From a virus, in the IMG/VR virus record IMGVR_UViG_3300042261_001312, positions 186,001 through 250,000 of that record: a DNA stretch of 64,000 nt; one strand, 5' to 3'. The notes beneath the pieces were generated by a model. The model worked only from the letters and a program-made list of their open reading frames with translations. It did no database searches and was not told the origin of the DNA. Position numbers and translations under genes: made by a program. Below are positions 6,519 to 63,305 of the stretch, one piece after another. How positions within the stretch are numbered: the first letter of the stretch is position 1; every line of letters starts with the position of its first letter.

Positions 6519-6527
6519 GTATTTATA
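6519..6527 (+). promoter_or_regulatory. Putative late promoter motif GTATTTATA
   Basis: Exact GTATTTATA in the gap after the polymerase gene; 15 nt separate it from the ATG at 6543. One of 22 sites that share this motif. Confidence 0.65.
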
Positions 6528-8924: not shown

Positions 8925-8933
8925 GTATTTATA
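8925..8933 (+). promoter_or_regulatory. Putative late promoter motif GTATTTATA
   Basis: Exact motif 4 nt past the endonuclease stop and 32 nt upstream of the ATG at 8966. Confidence 0.6.
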
Positions 8934-10080: not shown

Positions 10081-10089
10081 GTATTTATA
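10081..10089 (+). promoter_or_regulatory. Putative late promoter motif GTATTTATA
   Basis: Exact motif directly after the WYL-like gene; 22 nt separate it from the ATG at 10112. Confidence 0.62.
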
Positions 10090-14157: not shown

Positions 14158-14166
14158 GTATTTATA
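14158..14166 (+). promoter_or_regulatory. Putative late promoter motif GTATTTATA
   Basis: Exact motif 14 nt upstream of the LAGLIDADG endonuclease ATG at 14181. Confidence 0.62.
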
Positions 14167-15005: not shown

Positions 15006-16578
15006 ATTTATTGAAAATTTAAGAAATAAACCTTTTATTAAAAATTTAATAGAAAGTGAATATAGTGTTTATGCCGTTGGCGGTGTTGTTAGGGATTTAA
15101 TATTAAATAAGCCGAATAAAGATATTGATTTGGTGGTTGGTAACATTGATATTGATGATTTGATTTTTGTTTTAAAAAAATTTGGAAAAGTTGATGTTGT
15201 TGGAAAATCGTTTGGGGTAATTAAATTCGTAGATTCTGATGGTACTGATTATGATATTGCACTTCCACGAAGAGATAAAAAAAATGACAATGGCGGTCAT
15301 CGTGGCTTTGATGTTCAATACGATAAAAATATCCCGATTGAGTCAGAATTAATTCGCAGGGACGCAAAGTTCAACGCAATGGCGATTAATATTAATACTG
15401 GTAAATTTATTGACCCTTTAGGCGGTTTAAATGACATCGAAAATAAAAGTATTTCTGCAGCAAATCCTGAAGCATTTAGTGATGACCCATTAAGAATGTT
15501 GCGCATGATTAGTTTCGCAAGTCGTTTTGGTTTCAATATTGAGCCAAAAACAATGCAAAAAATCATTCAAAATGCTGACAGAATAAAAGAAATTACACCT
15601 GAAAGAATCTTAACAGAATTCGATAAAATTGTTAAAAAAGGCAATATATTCTTGGGTGCAAAACTATTGGGTGCTACTGGTTTATATGAAGCAATATTTG
15701 GAGTACAGCCACAAATTGATATGTACAAATCCAAAAATCTATTCAATAATGCCAAGACAATGGGTGATTTTATTTATCTATTGACCAAAGATTCTCTTGA
15801 TAGTCCTGCTGAATTTTATAAAGATAAATTAAAAGGTGATAACGATACATATAAGGAATTGAAGGCATTGGAAACTGCATACAGCATGGATAGTACTAAT
15901 CCAATTGCAAGTAGATCAGTTGCCCATAATATGTATTTATATTCGCCGCAATCACTTAATAGTCAAATTGTTCCCGATAATGTAAAGAATGCAGCACAAG
16001 AATTACTAACAGGTAAATATCCTAAAACAACAACTGAATTGGCTGTTAATGGTACTGATTTGATGAATCTTGGATTAAAGGGTAAAGAGATTGGCGATAT
16101 GCAGAAATCATTATTGATTAAAGTTTATTCGGATAAAGTTAGAAATAATAAAGAAGAATTATTATCTTTGGCAGGTGGTAATAATACATTAACTGAAGAT
16201 ATGAATGTTCTTTACAGTGCAGTTGTTCTTGACGAACAATCACACGATAAATTGGTAAAAGTTTTTAGGATGATGATTCCTGAAGGCTGGGAAATAATTG
16301 CGCATCATATGACAATTAATATGGGTGCGATAAAACCTGAGTTTCAAGATGATTTGGGTGATAAAATAAATTTATCAGTAATTGATTATGCTATTGATGA
16401 TAAAGTTATGGCAGTTGGTGTTGAAGGATATCCAACAATGAATGCCAAACCACATATAACAATTGCTGTTAATAGAAGTGCTGGTGGTAAACCAGTAATG
16501 TCGAATAATTTAACTGATTGGAAAGAAATTAAATTTAAATTGGAATTAACTGGAATTGTAACTGAAATTAAAAGATAA
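14989..16578 (+). CDS. tRNA CCA-adding-type nucleotidyltransferase fused to a 2H phosphoesterase
   Basis: Residues about 20-235 match the class II polymerase beta/CCA-adding fold: AVGGVVRDLIL, then KDIDLVV with the catalytic Asp pair, RRDAKFNAMAI and the DDPLRMLRMISFASRFGF block. A helical middle follows. From about 405 the C-terminus is a 2H-type domain with two H-x-T signatures (His440/Thr442 in HHMTINMG, His489/Thr491 in PHITIAVN), which in that superfamily acts on 2',3'-cyclic phosphates and RNA ends. An L-T-E tripeptide (401-403) sits exactly between the two enzymes. The N-terminus MEKLYEFIENL is a short amphipathic segment. With the HAD_SAK-like gene nearby this suggests RNA or tRNA repair. 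The usual HD domain of bacterial CCA enzymes is not seen. Confidence 0.85.
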   Translation: MEKLYEFIENLRNKPFIKNLIESEYSVYAVGGVVRDLILNKPNKDIDLVVGNIDIDDLIFVLKKFGKVDVVGKSFGVIKFVDSDGTDYDIALPRRDKKNDNGGHRGFDVQYDKNIPIESELIRRDAKFNAMAININTGKFIDPLGGLNDIENKSISAANPEAFSDDPLRMLRMISFASRFGFNIEPKTMQKIIQNADRIKEITPERILTEFDKIVKKGNIFLGAKLLGATGLYEAIFGVQPQIDMYKSKNLFNNAKTMGDFIYLLTKDSLDSPAEFYKDKLKGDNDTYKELKALETAYSMDSTNPIASRSVAHNMYLYSPQSLNSQIVPDNVKNAAQELLTGKYPKTTTELAVNGTDLMNLGLKGKEIGDMQKSLLIKVYSDKVRNNKEELLSLAGGNNTLTEDMNVLYSAVVLDEQSHDKLVKVFRMMIPEGWEIIAHHMTINMGAIKPEFQDDLGDKINLSVIDYAIDDKVMAVGVEGYPTMNAKPHITIAVNRSAGGKPVMSNNLTDWKEIKFKLELTGIVTEIKR

Positions 16579-18069: not shown

Positions 18070-18078
18070 GTATTTATA
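18070..18078 (+). promoter_or_regulatory. Putative late promoter motif GTATTTATA
   Basis: Exact motif 14 nt upstream of the ATG at 18093. Confidence 0.62.
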
Positions 18079-23216: not shown

Positions 23217-23225
23217 GTATTTATA
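23217..23225 (+). promoter_or_regulatory. Putative late promoter motif GTATTTATA
   Basis: Exact motif between a terminator and the gp25-like baseplate gene, 15 nt before the ATG at 23241. It is the best-placed example of the motif driving a clear structural gene. Confidence 0.75.
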
Positions 23226-31184: not shown

Positions 31185-31631
31185 ATGGTAATAACGGGGA
31201 CATCAAGTAGCAGATTAAGTGAATTGCGTAAATACACTGTAACAAATGTATTTACGAAACAATATATCACTGGTGGCACTGTCAATATTGACGGTGTAGA
31301 CCTTTCTGTTTCTAATCCAGCAGATAAAATAGTTTATTATCTTGGTGGTATTAAATATATTGATATTATGTCGGGGGAAACTTCTGGGACAACATTGAAT
31401 ATTTATACACCACAAGGAACTGCTAGTGCAAATTTTATTAATGTACCATATTATAAAAATCCAAACAAAGAAAACATTATCAGCAACCCAAAAATTAATG
31501 ATGATGTATTTATATCAAGACAGGAATTATCCGCATTTGATAAAAATTACAGATTAGAATATATAAAAAATTTAAGTGATTTGGAAACATATGCAGGTGG
31601 TAATTATTTTAAAATAGTAAATAACTCATAA
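31185..31631 (+). CDS. Hypothetical tail-associated protein, 148 aa
   Basis: A beta-rich small protein with many Gly, Thr and Asn residues, ending in a helical segment (DKNYRLEYIKNLSDLETYAGG). It lies between fibre genes in the same direction, 21 nt after the previous stop and 1 nt before the next start. I do not recognise a family; the ISRQELSAFDKNYRLEY stretch might be a contact helix. A small baseplate or fibre-connector role fits the location only. Confidence 0.72.
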   Translation: MVITGTSSSRLSELRKYTVTNVFTKQYITGGTVNIDGVDLSVSNPADKIVYYLGGIKYIDIMSGETSGTTLNIYTPQGTASANFINVPYYKNPNKENIISNPKINDDVFISRQELSAFDKNYRLEYIKNLSDLETYAGGNYFKIVNNS

Positions 31632-32594: not shown

Positions 32595-32603
32595 GTATTT
32601 ATA
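32595..32603 (+). promoter_or_regulatory. Putative late promoter motif GTATTTATA
   Basis: Exact motif immediately after a terminator, 16 nt before the GTG start at 32620. Confidence 0.72.
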
Positions 32604-42111: not shown

Positions 42112-42120
42112 GTATTTATA
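42112..42120 (+). promoter_or_regulatory. Putative late promoter motif GTATTTATA
   Basis: Exact motif 28 nt before the ATG of the first glycosyltransferase of the 42-45 kb cluster. Confidence 0.62.
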
Positions 42121-45238: not shown

Positions 45239-45247
45239 GTATTTATA
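45239..45247 (+). promoter_or_regulatory. Putative late promoter motif GTATTTATA
   Basis: Exact motif 13 nt before the ATG at 45261, near the minimal spacing seen in the window. Confidence 0.65.
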
Positions 45248-51174: not shown

Positions 51175-51213
51175 AAATTGCTTCAAAACTATTTGTTTTG
51201 AAGCAATTTTTTT
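51175..51213 (+). terminator. Rho-independent terminator
   Basis: A 15-bp perfect stem (51175-51189 with 51195-51209, core TTGCTTCAAAAC), 5-nt loop and T-run to 51213. Confidence 0.92.
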
Positions 51214-51222
51214 ATATATTTG
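51193..51222 (+). promoter_or_regulatory. Host-type Bacteroidota promoter candidate (TTG-N19-TATATTTG)
   Basis: TTG 51193-51195 and TATATTTG 51215-51222 are spaced by exactly 19 nt, but the TTG overlaps the terminator loop and arm, so the match may be incidental. Confidence 0.45.
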
Positions 51223-51252: not shown

Positions 51253-51261
51253 GTATTTATA
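51253..51261 (+). promoter_or_regulatory. Putative late promoter motif GTATTTATA (upstream copy)
   Basis: First of two exact copies 31 nt apart before the RHH/GIY-YIG cassette. Confidence 0.5.
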
Positions 51262-51283
51262 CTACTTTTATTCGGTCATTTAA

Positions 51284-51292
51284 GTATTTATA
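51284..51292 (+). promoter_or_regulatory. Putative late promoter motif GTATTTATA (proximal copy)
   Basis: Second exact copy, 16 nt before the ATG at 51309. Confidence 0.6.
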
Positions 51293-51308
51293 TTAAAAAT
51301 ATGTTGTA

Positions 51309-51458
51309 ATGGGTAGGAAAAAAATTGATAATGGTAAAATGAAATGTAAAATATCGATAACAATTTTACCTGAAGTAAATAATAAACTTGAAACATTGAA
51401 AATTAATAAATCAAAATTAATTAATTCACTGCTTCAAGAATATTTAAAAAATTTTTAA
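51309..51458 (+). CDS. Very small ribbon-helix-helix protein, 49 aa
   Basis: Reads MGRKKIDNGKMKCKISITI, then LPEVNNKLETLKINKSKLINSLLQEYLKNF: a basic N-terminal arm, a strand and two helices of RHH type (Arc/MetJ-like). One base separates its stop from the ATG of the GIY-YIG gene. The gene is too short for usual gene finders, but it is backed by the double late motif 16 nt upstream and by the same pairing at 46102 and 59855. It probably controls or aids the adjacent endonuclease. Confidence 0.72.
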   Translation: MGRKKIDNGKMKCKISITILPEVNNKLETLKINKSKLINSLLQEYLKNF

Positions 51459-51459
51459 T

Positions 51460-52239
51460 ATGAAAATTAAATGGACTAAAGAGAAATGCGAAGAAGAAGC
51501 ATTAAAATATTCAGGTAGAAATGAATTTAATCTTGGTTCACGTTCTGCATATAATTCAGCACGTAAAAATGGATGGCTTGATGATATTTGTTCTCATATG
51601 AAAAAGGGTGGAAATAAATTATATCGATGTATATATGTTTATGAATTTTCTGATAATTGTGCATATATTGGTTTGTCATATAATTTAAATAAAAGAAGTG
51701 AAATACGTAAAACCCAACAAAACGATGCGGTGACTAGACATATTAATAAAACCAATTTAGTTCCTAAAATTAAACAATTGAGCGAATATGTCTATGTTGA
51801 CATTGCCGCTGAATTAGAAAATGATTGCATTGAAACATATAAAATACTTGGGTGGAATGTTTTGAATAAACATCGTGGTGGAAATATCGGTGCAAGTGAA
51901 ATTATTTGGACTAAAGAATTATGTCATGTTGAAGCATTAAAATTTAAATCAAGAAGTGAGTTTTATTATCGAAGTAATAAAATATATACTGCAGCACAAA
52001 GACAAGGTTGGTTAAATGATATTTGTAAACACATGAATAATAAAATTCATCATTGGACTATTGATGAAGTTAAAGCAGAAGCATTTAAATATAAATCTAG
52101 ATATGAATTTCAACTAAATAATAAAGCAGCGTATACGTGGGCAATTAGAAATAATTGCTTGAATGAAATTTGTACACATATGCAATCAATGATAGGGAGT
52201 AATCAATATGGGAAATATTCAAGGACTGGAATTTCATAG
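51460..52239 (+). CDS. GIY-YIG homing-type endonuclease with WTKE-repeat DNA-binding modules, 259 aa
   Basis: Modules in order: a WTKEKC-x-x-EALKY-type repeat (about residues 5-45), a GIY-YIG domain (YVYEFSDNCAYIGLSYNLNKR, with the Arg after YIG), then two further WTKE/WTID repeats, each ending in NGWL/NxCL-x-x-IC-x-HM. The repeats bear conserved Cys/His and Trp and resemble DNA-recognition tails of other homing enzymes. It is a close paralogue of the gene at 60025. Its 3' end overlaps the primase start by 32 nt, as if inserted just upstream of the primase. Confidence 0.87.
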   Translation: MKIKWTKEKCEEEALKYSGRNEFNLGSRSAYNSARKNGWLDDICSHMKKGGNKLYRCIYVYEFSDNCAYIGLSYNLNKRSEIRKTQQNDAVTRHINKTNLVPKIKQLSEYVYVDIAAELENDCIETYKILGWNVLNKHRGGNIGASEIIWTKELCHVEALKFKSRSEFYYRSNKIYTAAQRQGWLNDICKHMNNKIHHWTIDEVKAEAFKYKSRYEFQLNNKAAYTWAIRNNCLNEICTHMQSMIGSNQYGKYSRTGIS

Positions 52240-53281
52240 TATTATTCAAAATATTTTTGGCGATGTTAATGGTCTTAATGTATCTGAGCAATTGCAAGTA
52301 AATTGCCCACGTTGTCAGGAAAGAGATGGATTGCGACATCCTGATGGTAAATATAACCTTGAGATTAACACACGTAGAAGACTTTATCGTTGTTGGCGTT
52401 GTGATGAACCAAAGTTTAGTGGTTCATTGGGTAGATTAATCAGAATGTTAGGTTCGAATGCTGATTATGAGATTTATAAATCATATGCAGGAATTCTTAC
52501 TGATTATGAATATAGTGAAGATGAAAAAGAATATGTTCAAGTAAAATTACCAGAAGAAATGATTTTATTTTCACAAATGGAAGCAGGAAATTTACAACAT
52601 TTCGAAGCATATAATTATTTAGTGAATGAAAGAAAAATATCAAGGGATATTATTTTAAAATATCGGCTTGGTTTTTGTACTACTGGAAGATATGCAAATA
52701 GAATAATTATACCATCCTACGATATGAATGGGGAAGTTAATTATTTTGTTGCCAGAACTTATGACCCCAAGGAAAAAAAGAGAAAATATGATAATCCTAA
52801 ATCAGATAAAGATGTAATCATATTTAACGAAGGATTTATTAATTGGGATTCTACTGTATATTTAGTTGAAGGTGTGACTGATATGTTTTCACTTCCAAAT
52901 GCTATTCCAATGCTTGGAAAAACCATATCTTCCACGTTGTATATGAAATTGAAGAAAATGATGCCAGATGTCGTCATTTTGTTAGACCCTGACGCTTATA
53001 AAAATAGTATTGAATTGTTTTACAAATTGCAAACTATTTATGTTGGCTGTGAGGAAAAAGTTAAAATTGTCAAACTACCAACAACTGAAGATATTGATGA
53101 ACTTCGTAGAAATCAAGGTATTGAGGAAGTTATTAAGTCATTATATACTGCAAGAGGTTTGACAATAGATGATTACTTTATTAATAAGTTACGAAAACCC
53201 TATGAATATAAACGAGGAGGATTTGATTCTAGTTCCAAAGATTATGAATGGAAATCGGGAAGCACAAGAAGTTTTTTATAA
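52208..53281 (+). CDS. Toprim DNA primase (DnaG/T7-type), 357 aa
   Basis: An N-terminal zinc site has CPRC (about residues 32-35) and CWRC (about 58-61). The toprim motifs are VYLVEGVTDMF (Glu) and VILLDPDAYKN (DPD). This is the layout of small phage primases that make RNA primers at the fork. No helicase domain is fused. It overlaps the upstream endonuclease gene and the downstream sigma gene (80 nt). The start at 52208 is supported because the zinc site follows within the normal distance. Confidence 0.9.
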   Translation: MGNIQGLEFHSIIQNIFGDVNGLNVSEQLQVNCPRCQERDGLRHPDGKYNLEINTRRRLYRCWRCDEPKFSGSLGRLIRMLGSNADYEIYKSYAGILTDYEYSEDEKEYVQVKLPEEMILFSQMEAGNLQHFEAYNYLVNERKISRDIILKYRLGFCTTGRYANRIIIPSYDMNGEVNYFVARTYDPKEKKRKYDNPKSDKDVIIFNEGFINWDSTVYLVEGVTDMFSLPNAIPMLGKTISSTLYMKLKKMMPDVVILLDPDAYKNSIELFYKLQTIYVGCEEKVKIVKLPTTEDIDELRRNQGIEEVIKSLYTARGLTIDDYFINKLRKPYEYKRGGFDSSSKDYEWKSGSTRSFL

Positions 53282-53831
53282 AAAATACCAAAAAACAGTA
53301 AAAGATTATTTAAAACATAGTTTTCCAAAATATAGTGTCGATGATATTGATGATTGTGTGTCATCAATTTTAATTAAAGTGTTTGATAGTTTGCATTTAT
53401 ATGATTCAGAAAAATCAAGTGTTAAAACTTGGATTCTATCTATAGCAAAACATTATATGATTGATTTGAATAGAAAAAATTCAACTAAATTAACATCATT
53501 CGCAAACACTATAACTACGACAGATACCGCATTCACTGATTATCAAACCACTACAAGTGTATGTAATACTGCTTTTTTATCAAATGCTATAAGTAGTTAT
53601 CAAACGTTTACCACTTGCAGCACAGATTTTGAAAACTGTAGTTCAATTAAATATATTACCTCACAATTAACCCCACAAGAATATACTTTATTGGATATGA
53701 AGTATGTTCAAGGCTATAACTATAATGAAATTGGAAAAGAATTTCAATTAACAAGTAGCACTGTGAGTAATAAGATTAACTATATAAAAACAAAATTGAA
53801 GAAGAATATACAAGAAGAAATATATGATTAA
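53202..53831 (+). CDS. ECF-type sigma factor, 209 aa
   Basis: The ATG at 53202 gives MNINEEDLILVPKIMNGNREAQEVFYKKY, the start of sigma region 2; an earlier start is unnecessary. Region 2 continues with DIDDCVSSILIKVFDSLHLYD and SSVKTWILSIAKHYMIDLNRK (residues about 45-95). Region 4 is LTPQEYTLLDMKYVQGYNYNEIGKEFQLTSSTVSNKINYIKTKLKKN (in parts), with a clear HTH. A Thr/Ser/Asn-rich linker joins the two. The gene begins 80 nt inside the primase gene. It is a good candidate for the phage late sigma that reads GTATTTATA, like T4 gp55 for TATAAATA. Confidence 0.9.
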   Translation: MNINEEDLILVPKIMNGNREAQEVFYKKYQKTVKDYLKHSFPKYSVDDIDDCVSSILIKVFDSLHLYDSEKSSVKTWILSIAKHYMIDLNRKNSTKLTSFANTITTTDTAFTDYQTTTSVCNTAFLSNAISSYQTFTTCSTDFENCSSIKYITSQLTPQEYTLLDMKYVQGYNYNEIGKEFQLTSSTVSNKINYIKTKLKKNIQEEIYD

Positions 53832-54490: not shown

Positions 54491-54499
54491 GTATTTATA
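54491..54499 (+). promoter_or_regulatory. Putative late promoter motif GTATTTATA
   Basis: Exact motif 22 nt before the ATG at 54522. Confidence 0.62.
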
Positions 54500-54521
54500 A
54501 TTGTAAGTGATTTATGTTAGT

Positions 54522-56213
54522 ATGGAAAATTTAAAATCTTATTTTCTTGATGATAAAAATGGTGCACATAAAAGAGAATCATTTTTAATCAAATATCATT
54601 CAGACCTATTGAATGATATTTTAAATTATAAAATTAACCTAAATAAAAATTATCCGTTAATTCAAAAAATATATAATTATATTTTCGCTTTGAATGAAGT
54701 TCCAAAATGTTATTGCGGTAATGAAGTCAAATTTAATGAAACTATAAATAAAGGATATAGAAAATATTGTTCAACTAAATGCGGTAGAAATGATCCTTTA
54801 GTTAAAGATAAAATAAGAAAAACGAATTTTGAAAAATATGGTGTAGATGCTCCATTACAATCAAAATTAATACAAGATAAACAAAAAGAGACGAACATAA
54901 AAAAATATGGTGTTGAAAATCCACAAAAAAATAGTATAATTAAAAATAAAACCAAACAGACAAACATAAAAAAATATGGTGTCGAGAATCCATTCCAATC
55001 AGAAATAATTAAAGATAAAATAAAACAAACAAATTTAAAAAAATATAATGTTGAAAACGTATCTAAACTGACGGCAATTAAAGAAAAAAAGAAAGAAACA
55101 TCAAGAATTAATTATGGTCAGGATTATTATACACAAACTAATGAATATAAAAAAAGACAAGCAAATACTTTTCTAAAAAAAATAAATAATTTAGATATTT
55201 CTGTTTTTGATTTAGATAATTTAATTTTTTTAGTGAAAAATCATTGTGAAAAGCATGAAGAATTTTTAATTAAAAAAGATACACTATATAATAGGTATTT
55301 TGTTTCTAAGCAAAATAATATTTGTACTGAATGTTTACCACCAGAAAGAACGCATGATTCAAATATTTTCAATGAAATAAAAAAATTTTTATTGAAATAT
55401 AATATAAATTTCATTGAAAATGATAGAAATGTTGTTAAGCCATATGAAATTGATTTATATTTGCCTGACCATAATTTTGGAATTGAAATAAATGGTTCTT
55501 ATTATCATTCCGATTTTTATAAAACCCCCAATTATCATCAAAATAAAACATTATTGGCTAGAAAACATAATATTTTTATATTTCATCTTTGGGATTTTGA
55601 TTATTATAATAACAAAAACTTGATTTTATCAATGCTGTTAAGTAAATTATCTTTAATTGAAAATAAAATATATGCAAGAAATACGAAAATTCGTGAAATT
55701 GAAGATAACGTCTGTAAAGAATTTTTAAATAAAAACCACATTCAAAAATGGTGCGTTTCACGATATCGTTATGGGTTGTATTGCGATAATAAACTAATTA
55801 GTGTCATGACATTTGGAAAATTGCGAAATAATTTAAATAGTGCTGGGAAAGAAGGTCAATTTGAATTATTACGTTTTTGTTCAGAACAAAATATGACCAT
55901 TGTTGGTGGTGCACAAAAATTATTAAACTTTTTTGAAAAAAACCATAATGTTACGAAAATTATATCATATTCAAATAATGACATCAGTAATGGTAATTTA
56001 TATAAAATTTTGGGATTTGATTTAATTAAAGAAACTAAACCAACATATTGGTGGATTAAACATATGGTAAAATACAATAGATATAACTTCAGGAAGGATA
56101 GATTAATTCAAGACGGTTTTGATGCCAATAAAACTGAAGATGAAATTATGAAAGAACGTGGATATTTAAAAGTATATAATTCAGGGAATCAACTTTACGA
56201 AAAACTCTTGTAA
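54522..56213 (+). CDS. Free-standing homing-type endonuclease with KYGVENP repeats and Vsr-like domain, 563 aa
   Basis: I use the ATG at 54522; a GTG five codons upstream is possible. A Cys-rich N-terminal segment (KCYCGNEVKF, YCSTKCGRND) is followed by four or five repeats of N-x-x-KYGVENP-x-x-S/N plus charged residues, each of ~25 aa, as in DUF7487-type phage endonucleases. A Vsr/EDxHD-like nuclease follows (YEIDLYLPDHNFGIEINGSYYH, then IFHLWDFD). The last ~150 residues look like another domain, with YRYGLYCDNKLISVMTFGKLR. Probably a homing enzyme acting near this locus; its target is not evident. Confidence 0.8.
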   Translation: MENLKSYFLDDKNGAHKRESFLIKYHSDLLNDILNYKINLNKNYPLIQKIYNYIFALNEVPKCYCGNEVKFNETINKGYRKYCSTKCGRNDPLVKDKIRKTNFEKYGVDAPLQSKLIQDKQKETNIKKYGVENPQKNSIIKNKTKQTNIKKYGVENPFQSEIIKDKIKQTNLKKYNVENVSKLTAIKEKKKETSRINYGQDYYTQTNEYKKRQANTFLKKINNLDISVFDLDNLIFLVKNHCEKHEEFLIKKDTLYNRYFVSKQNNICTECLPPERTHDSNIFNEIKKFLLKYNINFIENDRNVVKPYEIDLYLPDHNFGIEINGSYYHSDFYKTPNYHQNKTLLARKHNIFIFHLWDFDYYNNKNLILSMLLSKLSLIENKIYARNTKIREIEDNVCKEFLNKNHIQKWCVSRYRYGLYCDNKLISVMTFGKLRNNLNSAGKEGQFELLRFCSEQNMTIVGGAQKLLNFFEKNHNVTKIISYSNNDISNGNLYKILGFDLIKETKPTYWWIKHMVKYNRYNFRKDRLIQDGFDANKTEDEIMKERGYLKVYNSGNQLYEKLL

Positions 56214-56238
56214 TTTTAATTGGTTTTTCATATATTTG
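56208..56238 (+). promoter_or_regulatory. Host-type Bacteroidota promoter of the SbcCD fusion (TTG-N20-TATATTTG)
   Basis: TTG 56208-56210 and TATATTTG 56231-56238 are 20 nt apart, and the box ends 19 nt before the ATG at 56258. The TTG lies in the end of the upstream gene. Confidence 0.65.
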
Positions 56239-56257
56239 CATACCAAATAACATTAAA

Positions 56258-59200
56258 ATGAATATTAATAAGATATGCCATTTGGCAGACATCCACATCC
56301 GAAAAACACCTACTCGTAATGAAGAATACCAATTGGTATTCAATAATTTGTTAAAATCATTGAGTAAAAATAAACCAGATAGAATTGTAATTGTTGGCGA
56401 TTTGGTTCATGACTACCTTGATTTACAGGGGGAACAATTAATATTGGCTTCAGATTTTTTAAATGAATTGGCTGAGATTGCACCTGTTCGAATCACAAGA
56501 GGAAATCACGATTGTAGAAAAAAAACCCTGAATAGAGTTGATAGTGTTAAAGCAATTGTCGAAACACTACACAATCCAAAAGTTATTTATTATGATACAT
56601 CAGATGTTTATTATGATGATAATGTTGCTTGGATGGTTTGGCATCATGGAGACTCAAAAGGGAATCCTTGGAAGACGAAAGAAGGTAAAATTTATGAAAA
56701 ATTAAGAACAACTTCTCAACAGTATATTTCAATTGATTTATTTCATGATCCAATTAGTGGCTATTTGACTACTGGTGGTCTTGAAATGAAAAGCAAGTCA
56801 TATTACCAAGCATCTGATTTTAAGGGTGATTTGTCATTCTTTGGGGATATTCATAGAATGCAATACATGAATAAGGCAAAAACCAAAGCATATTGTGGGT
56901 CACTTATTGCACAAGACGTTAGTGAAGGTGATGATAACTTTCATGGATATTTATTGTGGGACATAACAACAAAAACGGCAGAAGAAATACCAATTGATAA
57001 TGATTGGTCTTATAAAAACGTGAGAATTACACCATACACTGACTTCGATGACTTGGATTTTGAAATTGGAAATCCGACAAAGCATATGAAGGTTAGGTTT
57101 CTCTGGGGTACATTACCTCAAACAAGAACAAAAGATAATGAAAGAAAATTAGCGATTTATCTCAAATCAAAATATGATAATGTAACAATTTCACATAAGA
57201 ATCAATTCATTGAAAGTGAGAAAATCGATGTTAATGAGAACATCACAATTCAAAACATTGAAGACAAAGCGGTTCAACATGAAATTTTCAAAGAATACCT
57301 AACCAAAATAGGTTCAAGTGAAGAAGTAATTAATGATGTTATTGCACTTGACGAAGAAATTTTAAATGAAATTGAATTTGATGATATTGCTAGTATTGAA
57401 TGGAATGTAGTTAAATTTGGAGGTAAGAATTTCATGTCATATGAAACACTTGATATTGATTGGCGTGATAATGACGGATTGTATCAAATAACTGGAATGA
57501 ATACTGCAGGAAAGACCACAATAATGAAGTTATTATCATATATTTTGTTCAGCAAGACATTGGAAACCGAAACAAGAGTTAAATATGGTGATATGCGTTT
57601 TGTTAACAACCGAAATGGTGCAGACTATTGTGAAGGTTATCTTGTATTAGAAGCAGGTGGTGAATATTACGGTATTAAGAAAAGAACTGAAATTGAAAAA
57701 AATAGGTCTGGTGAAATAAAAGGTGCGCCTACTACATTGAATTATTATCTACTTTCCAATCCAGACGAAGCAATGGATGAAAAAACATCGTTGGATGTAT
57801 TGGTTGAAGACCGTAAGTATAAAACGCAGAAGAAAATTGAATCTATTATTGGGTCATATGATAATTTCATGCGTATTGTAATGACGACATCTGATACGCT
57901 AAACAGAATATTATCAAACGATATGGCTGTTTTCATCGATTCAATTCTCTTTGATAGCGGATGTGATATATTCGATAAAAAACTCGAAGGATTGAAAGCA
58001 TATCAAAAACGAGTTAATGAGAAATCAAGGGTGAGTTGTAATGTTGAATTCACCACGACTGAAAATGCTACATTAAAACAAGAAATCCGTGTTCTCAAAG
58101 GTGAAATTACTGAAATTGAAACAACAAAGTTACCAGACATTCAAATAAGAATTTCCAAAGGCAGAAAATATGTTGAAGATTTAACGAAGAAACTCTTTAA
58201 AATTGATGCCGAAATTTATAATTTGGATATTGATGCCACAAAAGGATTGATTGAACGACATAATGGTATTATTGATGATTTTAAGGCACGTAAGAGCGTT
58301 TTAGAGACAAGCATTCTTGCTTTGAGGGAAACGTATGACGAAGAGAAATTAAATGCTCTAATCGCAAAAAAAGACACTCACAAGACAAATGAGTACTCAA
58401 TGAAGATGAAGATTAAAGAGCATGAACAAACCAAAAGAAATCATGAACATTCAATCGAAATATTAAATGGTGACATTTTTAGATTAAAAAAACAAGGCAC
58501 TGAATATAAGGAAGAAATTATCAAATTAAAAAACAGCAAGACTTGTCCTACTTGTGGTCAGTTATTAACTGCAGATCATAGAAAACATATTGACGATAAA
58601 ATAAAAGAAATCGAAGGTCAAATGTTTCCAATTGCAGACCAAATAAAGGACATTCAAAATGTAAAAATAAAAGAACAACAAGATATTATTGATAGTACTG
58701 TTAAGGAAATCGATAAAATTAAAAAGGATATTGATGATAAGTCATTGGAAATGGAAGGCGTTCTTACCGAAATAGGCGTTCTTACAAACGACAAGAATGA
58801 TGTGGATAGACGAAAGGAATTGATGATTGAGTATGACCAAATCCCAACAAAAATCCAAAACGAAGAATTGAAAATCAGTATACATCAACAAAAAATTGAT
58901 AATCACGACAATAGTCTGAAGCAAATCGAAGAGAATCAAAGGATTGAAAAAGGTATTACTGCCGCTAAATTAAAATTGAAAGAACTTGAAGATGAAGAGA
59001 GCGATGAAAAAGAAAATGTCTACATCAAGAAAACAGGTGTTGCTGAAAAAGAATTGAAAATTAAGAATAATGAAATTCTTATTGCCGAATTCAAAATACA
59101 GGAGCATCGTGATATGGTTATTAGTCTTTATAAGCAATGTGTACATAGGGATGGGATTCCAAGACAAATGTTGAGCAATTATATTTTACCGAATATCAAC

Positions 59201-59590
59201 ATAACTTTGGAAAATATCTTATCGGTTTCACCATTCAAGGTTTGGTTAGACCCTGTTGATTTAAGACCAAAATTGGTGTATAACGACAGACCTCAAGCAA
59301 TTGTTGATTGTATAAGTGCATCGGGAAAAGAAAGAACTTTTTCAAGTGTTGTGTTAAAATTCGCATTGAATCAGATTAACGTAAAGGCAAAACCTTCAAT
59401 CTTCCTGTTGGACGAAGTTATGGGTAAATTAAGTGAAGAAAGCATTGAAGAGTTCATTGAAATTCTTCAAATGATTAAAGCAAATATGAAAAAAGTACTG
59501 GTCATTGAGCATAATCACGAAATCAATCCAGACTATTTATTAAACGTACAATTGAATGATGATGGAATATCATCAGTAACAATGGAATAA
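56258..59590 (+). CDS. SbcD-SbcC (gp47-gp46, Mre11-Rad50) fusion protein, 1110 aa
   Basis: Residues ~1-385 are an SbcD/Mre11-type metallophosphoesterase: LADIHIRK, GDLVHD, TRGNHD (near 83) and GDIHRM. Residues ~385-1110 are an SbcC/Rad50-type ATPase: Walker A GMNTAGKTT (near 412), long coiled coils with a zinc hook CPTC (near 763), the signature SASGKERTFSS and Walker B IFLLDEV (near 1050). In T4 these are two separate genes, 47 and 46, acting in end resection and recombination-dependent replication. Here one chain carries both enzymes. It is led by a host-type promoter and followed by a 59-aa gene. Confidence 0.93.
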   Translation: MNINKICHLADIHIRKTPTRNEEYQLVFNNLLKSLSKNKPDRIVIVGDLVHDYLDLQGEQLILASDFLNELAEIAPVRITRGNHDCRKKTLNRVDSVKAIVETLHNPKVIYYDTSDVYYDDNVAWMVWHHGDSKGNPWKTKEGKIYEKLRTTSQQYISIDLFHDPISGYLTTGGLEMKSKSYYQASDFKGDLSFFGDIHRMQYMNKAKTKAYCGSLIAQDVSEGDDNFHGYLLWDITTKTAEEIPIDNDWSYKNVRITPYTDFDDLDFEIGNPTKHMKVRFLWGTLPQTRTKDNERKLAIYLKSKYDNVTISHKNQFIESEKIDVNENITIQNIEDKAVQHEIFKEYLTKIGSSEEVINDVIALDEEILNEIEFDDIASIEWNVVKFGGKNFMSYETLDIDWRDNDGLYQITGMNTAGKTTIMKLLSYILFSKTLETETRVKYGDMRFVNNRNGADYCEGYLVLEAGGEYYGIKKRTEIEKNRSGEIKGAPTTLNYYLLSNPDEAMDEKTSLDVLVEDRKYKTQKKIESIIGSYDNFMRIVMTTSDTLNRILSNDMAVFIDSILFDSGCDIFDKKLEGLKAYQKRVNEKSRVSCNVEFTTTENATLKQEIRVLKGEITEIETTKLPDIQIRISKGRKYVEDLTKKLFKIDAEIYNLDIDATKGLIERHNGIIDDFKARKSVLETSILALRETYDEEKLNALIAKKDTHKTNEYSMKMKIKEHEQTKRNHEHSIEILNGDIFRLKKQGTEYKEEIIKLKNSKTCPTCGQLLTADHRKHIDDKIKEIEGQMFPIADQIKDIQNVKIKEQQDIIDSTVKEIDKIKKDIDDKSLEMEGVLTEIGVLTNDKNDVDRRKELMIEYDQIPTKIQNEELKISIHQQKIDNHDNSLKQIEENQRIEKGITAAKLKLKELEDEESDEKENVYIKKTGVAEKELKIKNNEILIAEFKIQEHRDMVISLYKQCVHRDGIPRQMLSNYILPNINITLENILSVSPFKVWLDPVDLRPKLVYNDRPQAIVDCISASGKERTFSSVVLKFALNQINVKAKPSIFLLDEVMGKLSEESIEEFIEILQMIKANMKKVLVIEHNHEINPDYLLNVQLNDDGISSVTME

Positions 59591-61857: not shown

Positions 61858-61866
61858 GTATTTATA
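61858..61866 (+). promoter_or_regulatory. Putative late promoter motif GTATTTATA
   Basis: Exact motif 14 nt before the ATG at 61881. Confidence 0.65.
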
Positions 61867-63296: not shown

Positions 63297-63305
63297 GTAT
63301 TTATA
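63297..63305 (+). promoter_or_regulatory. Putative late promoter motif GTATTTATA
   Basis: Exact motif between a terminator and the ATG at 63325 (19 nt). Confidence 0.65.

Follow-up and report, generated by a model that had tools for sequence, protein, structure and literature searches.

T4 and SPO1 are known examples of phages whose own sigma factors switch the host polymerase. The late sigma of T4, gp55, has no region 4, and gp55 and gp33 together constitute a split sigma (PMC2988020). A comparative study of jumbo phages also reported phage sigma factors and gp33, in one group related to T4 (PMC7824862). In Bacteroidota, promoters follow the -7 box rule TAnnTTTG (PMC9723704). Searching full texts for phage sigmas with late promoters in Bacteroidota or huge phages yielded no paper on the motif or the family analyzed here.

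We analyzed a window of 64,000 nucleotides that is part of a viral record of 327,676 b (G000). The phage is contractile-tailed, as revealed by genes for tail sheath, portal and baseplate wedge proteins. Its sequence places it in a family of very large viruses with promoter-reading proteins of their own and a distinctive late promoter, AGTATTTATA. Relatives of its gp46/47-type gene occur in Tenacibaculum and Chryseobacterium phages, and its host-type promoters bear the -7 box TAnnTTTG, which makes a Bacteroidota host probable. The preliminary description had already assumed a Bacteroidota RNA polymerase, and the type of the host promoters agrees with that assumption.

The sigma1 protein and its operon

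The open reading frame at 53202..53831 (+ strand) encodes a protein of 209 aa, sigma1, which is a member of the sigma-70 family; an alternative, longer start is possible at 53169. The protein was matched by the sigma70-ECF profile TIGR02937 (9e-21) and by phrog_1740, 'RNA polymerase sigma factor' (8e-20). Homology was found to both region 2 (residues 25-94, 53274..53483, + strand; Pfam Sigma70_r2, PF04542, 2e-10) and region 4 (residues 155-201, 53664..53804, + strand; Pfam Sigma70_r4, PF04545, 2e-6). These regions are joined by a variable linker (residues 95-143, 53484..53630, + strand), in which Thr, Ser and Asn make up 51% of the residues and which gave no match to region 3. With regions 2 and 4 only, and neither region 1.1 nor region 3, sigma1 has the layout of an ECF-type factor. 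The profile searches bear out the two sigma regions and the Thr/Ser/Asn-rich linker that had been described from the sequence at the outset.

Relatives of sigma1 were found at 39 viral loci. Aligned members of the family are 36-61% identical to the sigma1 encoded here. Mean column conservation in the family rose from 0.28 in the linker to 0.66 in region 2 and 0.81 in region 4, which is the best-conserved part of the molecule. The region 4 helix is unusual, with TSSTxSNxxNYIKTKL at the place where PxGTVKxxxxRxR is usual. In the most divergent members (L003, L140) the D-x-W-R residues of region 2.4 are changed or lost, and the motif in these records is unchanged. The PHROG profile search gave no match between sigma1 and phrog_234, the T4 gp55 family, and a profile-profile comparison of sigma1 with gp55-like proteins reached only 62%. 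The C-terminal tail of sigma1 is hydrophobic and acidic (EEIYD in this genome, often EIIYE in relatives), as is the tail (IDYLDD) of a second candidate, sigma3, described below; in a comparison for a sliding-clamp epitope, the tail of the phage polymerase matched neither.

The start of sigma1 is overlapped by a gene for a DnaG-type primase (52208..53281, + strand; PF08275, 1.6e-5), and the order primase-sigma1 is kept in relatives. Annotation of the neighboring genes pointed to no anti-sigma factor. The operon is headed by a promoter of the host (Bacteroidota sigmaA) type, TTTG-N19-TATATTTG (51192..51222, + strand), recognized by the TAnnTTTG rule (PMC9723704), and most relatives have the same element immediately 5' of the primase gene. 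The position of sigma1 behind a host-type promoter, in this genome and in most relatives, implies that sigma1 can be made before the late genes. Between this promoter and the primase lies an inserted cassette (51253..52239, + strand) with two GTATTTATA promoters, an ORF of 49 aa and a repeat/GIY-YIG-like ORF of 259 aa. The cassette is missing from L001 and other relatives, and since it brings two late promoters, sigma1 could in this genome now also be transcribed late. Further downstream, a second host-type promoter, TTG-N20-TATATTTG (56208..56238, + strand), precedes a gp46/47-type (SbcCD-like) nuclease gene (56258..59590, + strand; Metallophos, AAA_23 and zinc hook), which is a neighbor of sigma1 in L001-L003, the relatives whose genes were listed one by one.

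Three classes of promoters

The window holds 16 exact GTATTTATA sites, all on the + strand, when shuffled sequences lead one to expect 2.3 and gave a maximum of 6. Over the whole record, 61 sites stand against 15 for the reversed-pattern control. The gene-by-gene upstream counts cover about 262 of 328 kb. Of the 309 genes in these 262 kb that encode 70 aa or more, 37 have GTATTTATA at 8-45 nt before the gene, compared with 2 for its reverse complement and 1 for the reversed pattern. The motif is the top upstream 9-mer, tied with its one-base-shifted form AGTATTTAT from the same sites, and stands before 61-71 of roughly 310-330 genes. A T4 promoter on the opposite strand (TATAAATAC, the reverse complement of the motif) was also considered and is ruled out by orientation (37 genes versus 2).

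Late promoter cores of the window lie, on the + strand, at 6519..6527 (before ORF 6543), 8925..8933 (ORF 8966), 10081..10089 (ORF 10112), 14158..14166 (ORF 14181, an endonuclease), 18070..18078 (ORF 18093), 42112..42120 (ORF 42149), 45239..45247 (ORF 45261), 54491..54499 (an ORF starting at 54507, with an alternative start at 54522) and 63297..63305 (ORF 63325). The core at 61858..61866 (+ strand, before ORF 61881) has an orthologous site and gene in L001 and L003. Several GTATTTATA sites are found immediately 3' of terminator-like hairpins, including those at 23217..23225 (+ strand, directly after a hairpin and T-run, before ORF 23241) and 32595..32603 (+ strand, before ORF 32620), and tandem copies are also present. 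The copy at 15933..15941 (+ strand) lies within a coding gene and is probably not a promoter; likewise, the copy at 31506 lies within a gene.

Alignment of 63 sites from this genome and 167 from relatives revealed a shared architecture, in which a T-rich block at 12-17 nt upstream is followed by (A)GTATTTAT(A) and then by AAA. The AAA is fixed at +11 to +13 from the core G, with A reaching 0.92-0.96 at the best positions, and the distance from motif to start codon is mostly 13-20 nt but ranges from 8 to 45. In the phage family the extended form of this promoter is AGTATTTATA, and the site alignment contained no conserved -35 hexamer. The genes directly behind the motif encode portal, tail sheath, tail spike and other virion proteins, endolysin and endonuclease VII. 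Those behind host-type or ECF-type promoters encode an exonuclease, an SbcC-like protein, a DNA-polymerase-family protein, RIIB, sigma2, Hsp20 and MutT. By gene content this is a late class, its structural and lysis genes being set apart from the host-type early promoters. Together with the fixed AAA and the spacing, this gene content makes GTATTTATA a well-supported core of a late promoter. The abundance of the motif and its late character had both been proposed in the preliminary description and hold up; the proposal of a '-10-only' promoter does not strictly hold, given the T-rich block 12-17 nt upstream of the core.

Many homing-type endonuclease genes also lie directly behind late promoters, which suggests that these genes travel with a late promoter of their own.

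The other phage-specific class has an ECF-type layout, GTAAC-N17-CGTATAAT, with the full form TGTAAC-A-TTTT ... CGTATAAT. The pair GTAAC and CGTA occurs at a spacing of exactly 17 nt in 32 sites and in at most 2 at any other spacing tested, and relatives have similar forms (GTAAC-N16 in G003, N16/17 in G032, GAAAC-N16 in G029). Most genes of this class lie toward the contig ends, at 266-314 kb and in the vicinity of 9-10 kb. A gene for a second ECF-type sigma, sigma2, lies at about 10.7-11.5 kb of the record (L004:1126-1914, - strand). It shares phrog_1740 as best PHROG with sigma1, but has the usual ECF region 4.2 helix, the common one among ECF sigmas, which sigma1 does not have. Since the sigma2 gene is next to the gene clusters of the class and encodes the usual helix, we assign GTAAC-N17-CGTATAAT to sigma2, which probably reads it. 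The bipartite promoter with a -35 GNAAC-like element and a -10 CGT box is thus present in the genome (32 sites) and fits sigma2 better than sigma1, the late class being without a -35 hexamer. The ECF and late promoters nevertheless share a geometry: both have a T block at 12-17 nt 5' of 'GTA' and initiate in A-rich sequence near +12.

Distant relatives of sigma2 are present in crAss-like phages, and no close relatives were found in viral contigs with the patterns used. Sigma2 also has an N-terminal extension of about 60 residues that partly matches phrog_8305 (unknown function) and that the sigma2 of G027 seems to share.

Candidate readers of the late promoter

The motif co-occurs with sigma1. 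All 33 related records bearing sigma1 hold GTATTTATA, mostly well above the reversed-pattern control (for example 80 versus 27, 82 versus 33, 78 versus 19 and 58 versus 12), and G034 and G035, each with a sigma1-like gene, hold the motif as well. There was no clear enrichment in four outgroup phages without sigma1: LR756501 (33 versus 34) and the phrog_234-bearing PTm1 (13 versus 8), pT24 (21 versus 11) and MA9V-1 (4 versus 4). This association of motif and sigma (33 records with, 4 outgroups without) is confounded by shared ancestry and by sigma3. Upstream regions in two of the outgroups have preferences of their own: those of PTm1 are rich in the host motif TATATTTG (22 versus 2.4) and in TAATACATA, and those of pT24 in T4-like TATAAATA (10 versus 1.5) and in TTGTTATATTA.

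At least three proteins of this genome could read the late promoter. In addition to sigma1 and sigma2, the phage encodes sigma3, a gp55-like protein of 289 aa with region 2 only (G000:C1:118405-119274, L014:1405-2274, - strand). Its profile matched gp55-like proteins (E 1.7e-5, prob 79). Pfam Sigma70_r2 matched one member of its family at 6.7e-4 and 4 of 15 members weakly. PDB fold searches gave weak matches, among them sigma domain 2 (WhiG, SigA, sigmaS); in the second search sigma domains ranked 1, 2 and 7, none of them significant, the confidence of the structure models being 64-69. Relatives of sigma3 were found in 21 contigs by a first search and in 172 stretches by a wider one. With 64-85% identity to the protein of this genome, sigma3 is better conserved than sigma1 (36-61%). 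An insertion of about 40 residues in the region-2-like part distinguishes its orthologues from one another, and four loci (L129, L130, L133, L136) have a diverged, tandem second ORF of sigma3 type in another frame just downstream. The 'late sigma' family phrog_234 is represented in the close relatives G006, G007, G024 and G015, and weakly in G027. This genome gave no phrog_234 hit and lacks the gene at the syntenic place; a phrog_234-type gp55 was rejected as reader here, the two flanking orthologues being 12 bp apart with no convincing match.

We consider sigma1 the leading candidate, and not the proven reader, of GTATTTATA; this sequence-based assignment is a nearly even call. Setting aside the host, ECF and late promoters leaves no further class that could be assigned to sigma1. 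Loss of region 2.4 residues in some members speaks against the assignment, though, the motif being almost invariant across the family. This is where sigma3, better conserved itself and likewise co-occurring with the motif, has its strength. It could read AGTATTTATA as a nearly -10-only late promoter in the manner of T4 gp55, as the gp55-like profile match, the weak sigma-domain matches and the lack of a conserved -35 hexamer would allow, and sigma1 would then serve another regulon or help sigma2. A case in point is LR756508 (LR756508.1, 484 kb), which has no clear sigma1 but a sigma3 relative (matching the sigma3 profile at 1.7e-9, gp55-like proteins at 3.8e-5 and sigma1 at 5.5e-3), together with an upstream motif, CTATTTAA. 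That motif is weak, however (the top upstream 7-mer is CTATTTA, 14 versus 1.9 expected, often as TCTATTTAA). The sigma identity of sigma3 comes from weak profile and fold matches and models of modest confidence, its operon has no host-type promoter within 4.5 kb upstream, and sigma1 would be left without a promoter class. We regard sigma3 as the main rival, a less likely reader than sigma1. The two proteins might also act jointly, the gp55-like protein reading the -10 element and sigma1 contributing a flap-bound region 4, as in the split sigma of T4 gp55 and gp33 (PMC2988020). Wherever both genes were looked for in large records with the motif, both are present (e.g., G006, G024, G027), and region 4 is the part of sigma1 that is best conserved (0.81). 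The division of labor is improbable given that region 2 of sigma1 is intact, so that sigma1 needs no partner for reading a -10 element.

Readings without a phage sigma fare worse. It is quite improbable that the motif is read by a sigma of the host, be it sigmaA or an ECF factor, aided by a phage activator bound nearby. The T-rich block could be an activator site, but the motif differs from both TAnnTTTG and the flavobacterial ECF CGT box (PMC9723704). Other Bacteroidota phages show no clear enrichment of it; PTm1, for example, is enriched in the host motif TATATTTG instead. That GTATTTATA is a ribosome-binding or mRNA-processing signal would explain its location about 15 nt before many start codons. 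The distance between motif and AAA is fixed, however, and that to the start codon varies, which points to a transcription start and not to a ribosome signal. Sites directly after terminator-like hairpins, tandem copies and the restriction of the motif to 61-71 genes also disagree with such a signal, which we hold to be highly improbable.

With sigma1 as reader, the phage would run a three-step transcription program on the host core RNA polymerase. Early genes would be expressed from host sigmaA promoters (TTTG-N19-TAnnTTTG), a second gene set by the phage ECF sigma, sigma2, from GTAAC-N17-CGTATAAT, and late genes from AGTATTTATA. Sigma1 would be made early from its host-type promoter and then most likely bind the host core polymerase. 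Region 2 would contact the AGTATTTAT core, region 4 would contact the weak T-rich block that lies 12-17 nt upstream of it, and transcription would begin at the fixed AAA, about 12 nt downstream of the core G. The preliminary description had named sigma1 as the reader without sight of the other sigma-like genes. Co-occurrence in 33 of 33 records and the host-type promoter speak for that link, and the second ECF-type sigma and the gp55-like protein encoded by the same genome speak against its exclusivity, so that it is plausible and better supported than before, yet undecided.

Comparison with known systems

Phage sigma switching takes a new form here, in which a promoter program of three steps can be read from sequence. 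In an uncultured phage family with records of up to 365 kb, the sequence reveals promoters of three classes and sigma-like proteins numbering at least three. They chart early, second-step and late transcription in Bacteroidota phages in a form that can be tested, and provide a promoter rule for annotating late operons in the family. We find it possible, if somewhat doubtful, that the late factor is an ECF-derived sigma that gave up the -35 hexamer for an extended A/T-rich -10 element while a gp55-like protein was kept beside it, completing a cascade on the host core in which sigmaA and an ECF sigma are followed by a late factor acting on AGTATTTATA. If true, the T4-type and the ECF-type solutions to late transcription coexist in a single phage. 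The family offers a clean case for asking which type of factor, ECF or gp55, takes control of late transcription.

By analogy with gp55, gp33 and gp45 of T4, a phage sigma-like factor would redirect the host core RNA polymerase to a short, A/T-rich late promoter of -10 type. As in T4, late genes are structural and the sigma1 gene lies beside genes of gp46/47 type. Unlike T4, the late motif is AGTATTTATA with a T-rich upstream block and not the TATAAATA octamer, and the phage encodes a separate gp55-like protein as well. Moreover, gp55 is without region 4 and sigma1 has an intact region 4 that is the best-conserved part of the protein; of the gp55 logic initially invoked, the phage-directed late promoter stands, and the comparison with gp55 itself fits sigma3 better than sigma1. 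The gp55 family phrog_234 is found in T4-like phages of Bacteroidota, namely the Tenacibaculum phages pT24 and PTm1 and the Chryseobacterium phage MA9V-1, but not at the syntenic place here.

Sigma1 resembles ECF sigmas (TIGR02937; flavobacterial ECF sigmas, PMC9723704) in consisting of regions 2 and 4 only. The family phrog_1740, which includes sigmas of crAss-like phages, covers both sigma1 and sigma2, yet no INPHARED phage gave a tblastn match to sigma1. Unlike ECF systems, the late promoters have no -35 hexamer, the sigma1 linker is long, variable and rich in T, S and N, and the region 4 helix is unusual. Nevertheless, the geometry of the late promoter resembles that of the phage's own GTAAC-N17-CGTATAAT class, and the late 'GT' core resembles the '-10 CGT box' of flavobacterial ECF sigmas (PMC9723704).
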